The notes under the pieces were generated by a model, which made no database searches, was not told where the DNA came from, and was given only the letters and a program-made list of their open reading frames with translations. This document shows, one piece after another, positions 7,414 to 11,997 of a stretch of 33,614 bases of DNA. The position numbers and the translations under genes are program-made. This DNA is from Occallatibacter sp. GTDB taxonomy: Bacteria; Acidobacteriota; Terriglobia; Terriglobales; Acidobacteriaceae. Location of the stretch: positions 1 through 33,614 of the forward strand of contig JARLGF010000157.1 of assembly GCA_031296165.1 (NCBI GenBank), in the 5' to 3' direction. Position 1 is the first letter of the stretch; each line of letters starts with the position of its first letter.

Positions 7414-7489
7414 TGGAGCACCGGGCGGGTTTCGAACCCGCGAATACAGGTTTTGCAGACCTGCGCGTTAGCCACTTCGCCACCGGTGC
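7414..7489 (-). tRNA. tRNA-Cys(GCA), with encoded CCA
   Basis: Minus strand GCACCGG TGGCGAAGTGGCTAACGC GCAGGTCTGCAAAACCTGT ATTC GCGGGTTCGAAACCCGC CCGGTGC T CCA: 7-bp acceptor, D, anticodon (GCA) and T arms all pair; U73 discriminator. Confidence 0.97.
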
Positions 7490-7498
7490 TTGAAAAGG

Positions 7499-7563
7499 CA
7501 GTTGTCAGTCGTCAGTTGTCAGTGAGAGTCCGATTGCTGAGAACTGAACACTGTCGGCTGCAA
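7499..7563. repeat. Heptad-periodic repeat C between terminator and tRNA-Cys
   Basis: CAGTTGT CAGTCGT CAGTTGT CAGTGAG at 7499-7526, with a related divergent stretch up to 7563. Confidence 0.65.
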
Positions 7564-7565
7564 CT

Positions 7566-7598
7566 AAAAAACCCACCGCGCCTTGTGGCGGGTGGGTT
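7566..7598 (-). terminator. Intrinsic terminator/attenuator on the minus strand
   Basis: RNA-sense AACCCACC-CGCC-acaa-GGCG-c-GGTGGGTT followed by UUUU: 8 bp + bulge + 4 bp stem with U-run, 26 nt after the leader ORF stop. Confidence 0.88.
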
Positions 7599-7624
7599 GA
7601 CTGGAGATTCTTTGCTTTCGGAAT

Positions 7625-7708
7625 CTAGCCCAGAGAACACGCCCGCGCGGTGCGGCAGCCCTGACAGCAGCAGCACAGACAGATCGCGGGAGTAGAGAAT
7701 CGGGCCAT
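7625..7708 (-). CDS. Cys-rich 27-aa putative leader peptide MARFSTPAICLCCCCQGCRTARACSLG
   Basis: ATG at 7708, TAG at 7627-7625; RBS AAAGGA at 7714-7719 with 5-nt spacing; 7 Cys codons including TGT CTG TGC TGC TGC TGT; terminator directly downstream. Confidence 0.8.
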   Translation of the reverse strand: MARFSTPAICLCCCCQGCRTARACSLG

Positions 7709-7763
7709 CGAAATCCTTTGCCGGGAAACACGCAAATCACGCTGCGGCTCACCGGATATTCGT

Positions 7764-7792
7764 AGACTAGAGGTAATCCGGAGGCAAGTCAA
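7764..7792 (-). promoter_or_regulatory. Putative sigma70-type promoter for the Cys leader/tRNA-Cys unit
   Basis: Minus strand TTGACT (7792-7787) N17 TAGTCT (7769-7764); -35 matches 5/6, -10 matches 3/6. Confidence 0.5.
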
Positions 7793-10928: not shown

Positions 10929-11885
10929 TCAGGATTGCTCCCAGAAACGCTCGGAGAGATATGTGCCGGCCCCGTCGGGCAGAACGGTGACGATGACGGC
11001 GCGGCGGCCGGCGGCGGCTTCTTCACGAGCGATGCCGAGCGAGACGGAGACGGCCGCGGCAGCAGAGATGCCGACCAGCAGGCCTTCCTCGCGAGCCAGG
11101 CGCCGGGCCATGTCGTAAGCGGCTTCGGTTTCCACTTCCACGGTGCGATCGGCGAGATGGGGGTTATAGATGGCAGGCACCAGGGTTGGGCCCTGGTACT
11201 TGAGGCCGACAATGCCGTGCAAAGGCGCATTGGGCAGGAAGCTGATGGCCTGGAGGGCGGGGTTGCACCCCTTGAGAAAGCGGGTGACTCCGGTAAAGGT
11301 TCCGCTGGTTCCGATGCCGGCGACAAAGTGCGTGACCTGGCCGGAGGACTGCTGCCAGATTTCAGGGCCCGTGGTGCGGAAATGCTCCTGCCAGTTGGCG
11401 TCGTTGGAGTACTGGTCGGCGTAGTAGTAGCGATGGGGATCGTTGCCGGCGATTTCGCGGGCGCGGAAGATGGCTCCATCGGGACCCAGGGCAGGATCGG
11501 TCCAGTCCACTTGCGCTCCGTAGGCGTGGAGGATGCGCTTGCGCTCAGGCGAGACGTTGGAGGGCATGGCCAGCAGGACGGGAAAACCGAGCGCCGCGCC
11601 CAACATGGCGAAGGCGAGGCCGGAGTTGCCGGTGGAGGCGTCCAGGAGGGTTTTGCCCTGGGTGAGCAGGCCGCGGGCGCGCGCATCGCGAACGATGGCG
11701 GCGGCGGCCCGGTCCTTGACGCTGCCACCGGGGTTGGCCCACTCGGCCTTGCCTAGGAGGGTGATGCCGGCAAGATCGCGGACGGGCATTTCAAGGCGGA
11801 TGAGCGGCGTGTTGCCGATGCGCTGGGGCAGCGAGGAGCCGGGCATAGAAGAGACGGGAATTGCGGAGTTGCCGGTAATTTTCAT
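10929..11885 (-). CDS. PLP-dependent cysteine synthase family protein
   Basis: RIGNTPLIRLE...KAEWANPGGSVKDRAAAAIVRDA...LLDASTGNSGLAFAMLGAALGFP...GIGTSGTFTGVTRFLK; probable ATG at 11885 (ORF extends to 11957). Confidence 0.92.
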   Translation of the reverse strand: MKITGNSAIPVSSMPGSSLPQRIGNTPLIRLEMPVRDLAGITLLGKAEWANPGGSVKDRAAAAIVRDARARGLLTQGKTLLDASTGNSGLAFAMLGAALGFPVLLAMPSNVSPERKRILHAYGAQVDWTDPALGPDGAIFRAREIAGNDPHRYYYADQYSNDANWQEHFRTTGPEIWQQSSGQVTHFVAGIGTSGTFTGVTRFLKGCNPALQAISFLPNAPLHGIVGLKYQGPTLVPAIYNPHLADRTVEVETEAAYDMARRLAREEGLLVGISAAAAVSVSLGIAREEAAAGRRAVIVTVLPDGAGTYLSERFWEQS

Positions 11886-11997
11886 AGGAGATTTCTGTTG
11901 GGGCGAATTGCCGCCGGGGCTCGGCATATGCGAGATTCTACATAGCGAGAATTCCACCGAACCCTACTTAGATTATCCTCGCAGACTGGAAGCGACC

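Follow-up and report, generated by a model that had tools for sequence, protein, structure and literature searches.

A cysteine-codon leader very probably attenuates a second, inducible tRNA-Cys gene in Acidobacteriaceae

Introduction

Expression of tRNA genes is usually taken to follow growth rate and stringent control, and leader-peptide attenuation is not counted among its controls. The locus described here raises the question of whether a tRNA gene can be controlled through the decoding of its own codon. On the minus strand of a 33,614-nt stretch of Occallatibacter DNA (the window), a short open reading frame rich in Cys codons and an intrinsic terminator precede a gene for tRNA-Cys. Attenuators are almost unannotated in Acidobacteriota (PMC2965389). 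The genome that holds the window (G000; 2.78 Mb, 65.5% complete) was analyzed within a set of 81 genomes of its genus, and the comparison was extended to the family and the phylum.

Results

Anatomy of the leader locus

The features of the locus are collected in Table 1. A preliminary description of the window had reported the promoter, the ribosome-binding site and an ORF of 27 amino acids with seven Cys, and all were confirmed to the base; the Cys codons are 10, 12-15, 18 and 24. It had also placed a terminator 26 nt past the stop codon and tRNA-Cys(GCA) about 75 nt further on; the distance from the U-run is 76 nt, and both ARAGORN and Rfam recognized the tRNA. The terminator is formed by the arms AACCCACCCGCC (7598-7587) and GGCGCGGTGGGTT (7582-7570), separated by a loop. 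The ORF is not leaderless: it has a Shine-Dalgarno sequence, and 55 nt separate the end of the -10 element from its ATG. A divergent PhzF-family gene adjoins the locus.

Table 1. Features of the leader locus in the window
Feature	Position	Strand	Basis
Sigma-70-type promoter of the leader, TTGACT-N17-TAGTCT	7764..7792	-	TTGACT 7792-7787, 17 nt, TAGTCT 7769-7764
Shine-Dalgarno sequence AAAGGA	7714..7719	-	Sequence; kept in the alignment of relatives
Leader ORF MARFSTPAICLCCCCQGCRTARACSLG, 27 codons, 7 Cys	7625..7708	-	ATG 7708, stop 7627-7625
Main Cys-codon run (codons 10, 12-15), proposed stall site	7664..7681	-	Sequence, alignment
Segment 1 (ACTCCCGCG), which forms the protector helix with segment 2	7685..7693	-	Consensus fold, co-variation with segment 2
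Segment 2 (CGCGGGCGTGTTC), antiterminator strand	7635..7647	-	Near-invariant; co-variation with terminator 5' arm
Intrinsic terminator hairpin (segments 3:4) and U-run (to 7566)	7566..7598	-	Sequence, folding, alignment
Terminator-tRNA spacer without promoter-like site	7490..7565	-	Spacer score at shuffle level
tRNA-Cys(GCA), type-2 isodecoder, candidate regulated gene	7414..7489	-	ARAGORN; Rfam RF00005, 65 bits

A generic promoter and terminator scan of the window flagged neither the promoter nor the terminator of the leader. When Rfam was searched at gathering and lax thresholds, the tRNA alone was recognized, with no known riboswitch or leader, and a T-box was not matched even with E values of up to 10 allowed. 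The spacer before the tRNA carries short repeats of the CAGTT/ACAACTGAC type, which are expanded in other spacers of the genus (G053, G031) and account for the length differences among them. A cysteine-synthase-like PALP gene lies at 10929-11957 on the same strand, about 3.5 kb from the locus; a Cys leader was looked for upstream of it and none was found.

The leader is conserved within one family

The preliminary description had proposed that related genomes be searched for Cys runs and terminators upstream of tRNA-Cys, and the arrangement was found in dozens of them. With blastn against 100 relatives, the leader was present in 18 genomes of the genus; of the 81 genus genomes, 43 had a match to a covariance model of the element (R1) and 38 had none. 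Two leaders that escaped R1 (G006:C290 and G038:C88) were recovered by starting from the tRNA. A second model (R2) of wider reach, derived from 44 leaders, matched 220 of 399 Acidobacteriaceae genomes in 47 of 80 genera, a count in which the weakest matches may be other attenuators and which distant variants will escape. Across a phylum-wide sample of 347 genomes, matches were confined to one family of soil bacteria, Acidobacteriaceae.

Element-bearing contigs in named records are likewise mostly from Acidobacteriaceae (Acidobacteriota, Terriglobales), the carriers being Acidobacteriaceae MAGs, Acidobacterium sp. S8, Edaphobacter and isolate TAA 166, whose lineage was confirmed. One record labelled Deltaproteobacteria (L166, JAFAHS010000278.1) bears an Acidobacteriaceae-type leader and tRNA-Cys and is probably a misbinned contig. 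Six weak or partial matches (L019-L023 and L068) were set aside as chance hits or other attenuators. Also set aside was L070 (G210:C174), an ilvB-type Val leader in which a short ORF with a VVV run and a terminator precede an acetolactate-synthase-like gene; it is probably an ordinary attenuator for branched-chain amino acids from the same taxonomic class of Acidobacteriota.

Genes behind the leaders

Within the genus, tRNA-Cys directly follows most leaders, and in four a peroxiredoxin gene comes first and tRNA-Cys after it. Among 71 further leaders of the family, tRNA-Cys lies downstream in 68 (directly in 9, after a peroxiredoxin gene in 59) and the remaining 3 precede a peroxiredoxin gene only; in most genera, peroxiredoxin sits between terminator and tRNA-Cys. 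The order leader-peroxiredoxin-tRNA is also that of two cultured relatives, Acidobacteriaceae bacterium TAA 166 and Acidobacterium sp. S8. Some genus leaders also precede peroxiredoxin alone, and others a sugar isomerase-like protein with a Gfo/Idh/MocA oxidoreductase, or a TonB-type receptor. Sister leaders stand before genes for a probable sulfate-binding protein and permease (G104), before sulfite reductase (G017), and before peroxiredoxin followed by a cysteine-synthase-like and a ThiS-family gene (G009). The window's own genome has, on another contig, a second Cys-rich leader with terminator (MSSIFNSAMCPCPCYSQCSAARACLTG; L088, G000:C54:12148-12304), which precedes genes for a TonB-type receptor, a sugar isomerase-like protein and a Gfo/Idh-like oxidoreductase. 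Comparison with sister loci in the genus hints that uptake is regulated by Cys here, and the substrate may be an organosulfur compound. From G042:C127:43350 onward (locus L042), a Cys leader, an apparent decayed tRNA-Cys and a sugar isomerase gene come one after another; the locus may be a halfway stage in the capture of the leader by a new gene.

The frequency of the order leader-peroxiredoxin-tRNA outside the genus might mean that the attenuator was built for peroxiredoxin and sulfur genes, and that tRNA-Cys is a passenger left behind by the loss of peroxiredoxin in the lineage of the window. We consider this unlikely: tRNA-Cys is the steadier partner of the leader, the direct order occurs in several genera, the intervening slot is filled by two different types of peroxiredoxin (one with a 1-Cys C-terminal domain), and some genomes (G001, G021 and G511) have separate leaders for the tRNA and for peroxiredoxin.

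Competing helices co-vary while the peptide changes

Leaders of the genus share the peptide pattern M-A/T-x-F-F-T-P-A-M-C-M-C-C-C-C-Q-G-C-x-A-R-A-C-S-L-G, followed by a near-invariant stretch, CTGGGCTAGATTCCGA, and then the terminator. The 129 leaders analyzed have on average 6.3 Cys per 24.8 codons, with both TGC and TGT in use. From genus to genus the number and spacing of the Cys and all other residues vary, and segments 1, 2 and the terminator co-vary. Three RNA segments fit the classical 1:2 / 2:3 / 3:4 logic of an attenuator. The preliminary description had proposed that the stretch 7646-7636 pairs with the 5' arm of the terminator and that co-variation be looked for; the pairing exists, and by permutation segment 2 pairs with its own terminator arm better than with the arms of other leaders. 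For 2:3, none of 20000 permutations was better with either 58 leaders or 19 non-redundant ones; with 35 non-redundant sequences of the 129, p was 0.0002, and at the strictest filter of that analysis (10 sequences) 0.05. A conserved 1:2 protector helix, absent from the earlier account, was also found (permutation p about 0.0004). The 1:3 control, segment 1 against the terminator arm, where no pairing is expected, gave no signal (p 0.2-0.46). Overall, in most non-redundant sets the p values for 1:2 and 2:3 do not exceed about 1e-3; the redundancy filter removes relatedness among leaders only in part.

Folding of the window leader followed the same logic. Without a ribosome, the protector and the terminator form; when folding starts from the edge of a ribosome in the Cys run and the 3' arm of the terminator is not yet made, the 2:3 helix forms (-22 to -28 kcal/mol over the fragment); with a ribosome placed at the stop codon, the terminator alone remains. 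Besides the genus genomes without an R1 match and the type-2 genes without a leader (see below), two results count against an attenuator: the antiterminator of the window has two mismatches, and the full-length minimum-energy fold prefers the terminator even with a stalled ribosome. With the terminator more stable at full length, switching has to rely on kinetic trapping, like that of classical attenuators.

The same anatomy and output would be expected if the leader sensed a ligand, for example copper or an oxidant, through stalling of a Cys-rich nascent peptide and not through Cys-tRNA, and the commonest co-regulated protein gene is indeed that of peroxiredoxin. We regard such sensing as quite improbable: residues flanking the Cys run differ from genus to genus, which is what counting of codons, and not an arrest peptide, would lead one to expect, and genes for sulfate uptake and sulfite reductase lie behind sister leaders.

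The promoter lies before the leader

A TTGACA-N17/18-TAnnnT pattern precedes 53 of 58 leaders, far above shuffled sequences. Between terminator and tRNA, where the preliminary description had seen no convincing promoter, promoter scores were at the level of shuffles and the core pattern occurred in 1 of 23 spacers. Spacers in relatives are as short as 9, 23, 26 and 34 nt. These are too short for a separate promoter; consequently, the type-2 tRNA-Cys of those genomes must be a product of readthrough. In another reading, the ORF would be the gene of a small peptide with a metal- or redox-binding function and would have a terminator to itself, and the tRNA would be a mere neighbour with a promoter of its own. 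Although Cys-rich small peptides exist in bacteria and conservation of the ORF in the genus is good, this is highly improbable, since it would account neither for the co-variation of the RNA segments while the peptide varies across genera, nor for spacers without room for a promoter, nor for a downstream gene that is nearly always tRNA-Cys, with or without peroxiredoxin.

The leader belongs to a second tRNA-Cys

Acidobacteriaceae genomes also have a different, leaderless housekeeping tRNA-Cys (type 1), and all 109 leader-linked tRNA-Cys genes are of the other type (type 2). Type 1 has matches in 68 of the 81 genus genomes, identical in >50, and was present in all 18 other genomes of the family tested; the copy in the window genome lies at G000:C69:6224-6298. 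With this housekeeping copy found, the notion that the type-2 tRNA is the sole tRNA-Cys was dropped. A 100% complete genome (G120) has two tRNA-Cys genes, one in a leaderless Gly-Cys pair and one behind the leader. In the window genome the two types are identical at 56 of 76 positions and have the anticodon loop, the discriminator U and CCA in common, and from these sequences both isodecoders look chargeable. Leaderless type-2 genes exist in the genus (G008, G009 and G115), so the link between leader and type 2 is not absolute.

The arrangement exceeds what chance would give. When a strict criterion for a poly-Cys short ORF upstream was applied, 15 of 46 type-2 genes qualified versus none of 15 type-1 genes; so did 3 of 60 other tRNA genes (three homologous loci) and 15 of 1332 overlapping background segments of the window, the leader itself among them. 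Among the 47 tRNA genes of G120, only the type-2 tRNA-Cys is preceded by a terminator and by a short ORF in which the rare amino acid of that tRNA forms a dense run.

The 3' ends of type-1 tRNA-Cys genes (~45 nt) are repeated exactly or near-exactly tens of kb from the intact gene (e.g. G376:C1:3461265-3515242 and G251:C1:2947983-3012387). The repeats look like attachment-site duplications of elements integrated at this tRNA.

Discussion

The leader has the sequence features by which a ribosome-mediated attenuator is recognized: a short ORF behind a Shine-Dalgarno sequence in which codons of the regulated amino acid form a run, an intrinsic terminator between this ORF and the regulated gene, competing antiterminator and protector helices kept in evolution (by permutation, control and folding), and a matching gene content, tRNA-Cys and, at sister loci, sulfur genes. 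Sequence comparison has shown its conservation, the position of its promoter, the dependence of the tRNA on readthrough, the co-variation of the competing helices and the distinction between the isodecoders. We hold it very probable that a ribosome-mediated transcription attenuator controls here a second, inducible tRNA-Cys gene. All the sequence tests that the preliminary description had named spoke for its reading; the housekeeping tRNA-Cys alongside, the protector helix and the same type of leader at peroxiredoxin and sulfur genes correct and extend it, as far as sequences can tell.

We propose that RNA polymerase starts just past the promoter (7792-7764) and that a ribosome translates the Cys-rich leader. 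With ample Cys-tRNA, the ribosome would reach the stop codon and mask segment 2, the terminator would form, and no tRNA would be made. When Cys-tRNA is short, the ribosome would stall in the Cys run and mask segment 1; the freed segment 2 would pair with the 5' arm of the terminator, and polymerase would read on into the type-2 tRNA-Cys gene. In most relatives, the same readthrough would also yield peroxiredoxin. The spare tRNA-Cys is thus probably made only when ribosomes run short of Cys-tRNA.

At the level of sequence the leader fits the definition of a classical amino-acid attenuator, a class with the trp, his, leu and pheST leaders of proteobacteria and the trpS and leuS attenuators of Streptomyces (PMC1262725) among its members. 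It would share with that class the short translated ORF with a run of regulatory codons, the 1:2/2:3/3:4 helices, the intrinsic terminator and readthrough on shortage of the charged tRNA; unlike the biosynthetic or synthetase genes that classical attenuators control, its target is a tRNA gene, that of a second isodecoder. Polycysteine small-ORF attenuators of mycobacteria were reportedly described by Canestrari in 2020 (cited in PMC13236596), their ORFs being leaderless by the title of that work. Both leaders use a run of Cys codons as a putative sensor of Cys-tRNA, but the mycobacterial ORFs are, as far as that title goes, leaderless, and their targets are cys operons, whereas here the ORF follows a Shine-Dalgarno sequence and has an intrinsic terminator and a tRNA target. 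Polycysteine leaders had been predicted in mycobacteria without conserved intrinsic terminators being seen, and Rho was proposed (PMC1262725). The uORFC-8-2 motif, confined to Rhodobacterales, likewise combines tandem Cys codons in an uORF, an intrinsic terminator and a proposed readthrough that raises Cys-tRNA, but its leader is different and its target is cysS, the gene of cysteinyl-tRNA synthetase (PMC8632094); the leaders found here precede tRNA-Cys, peroxiredoxin, sulfur and other genes. T-box leaders also control termination by sensing tRNA charging, as we suppose for this one, but they bind uncharged tRNA directly, without a translated leader. The preliminary description had not recognized the arrangement as a described one, and in the literature searched, which omits most subscription journals, we found no tRNA gene described as under leader-peptide attenuation.

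What the cell would gain is not obvious, since an extra tRNA helps only if tRNA, and not cysteine, is limiting. The leader should react whenever Cys-tRNA becomes scarce at the ribosome, and the benefit may be that decoding of Cys codons is restored when tRNA-Cys is lost or under thiol or oxidative stress. Two leads, which are not evidence for the leader system, come from other bacteria: tRNA-Cys is selectively shortened in Bacillus subtilis under mercury or oxidative stress (PMC5372718), and VapC4 of Mycobacterium tuberculosis, as cited in PMC13273310, targets tRNA-Cys and induces sulfur pathways. The peroxiredoxin partner would fit a setting of tRNA-Cys damage and oxidative stress. Tentatively, and with somewhat less than even confidence, we suggest a family-wide response to decoding failure, in which stalls at Cys codons switch on a dedicated spare isodecoder and peroxiredoxin. 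The stalls would come from loss, damage or lack of charging of the housekeeping tRNA-Cys, with thiol stress, oxidative stress or a toxin that cleaves tRNA as examples of a cause.

If this is true, these bacteria would have a second pool of tRNA for use on demand, and the homeostasis would concern tRNA itself and not the amino acid. With the attenuator as such, a tRNA gene would be under feedback from the decoding of its own codon, and regulation would separate a constitutive from an inducible isodecoder of one amino acid across a bacterial family, giving a testable system for why bacteria keep two isodecoders and how sulfur and oxidative stress adjust tRNA supply.
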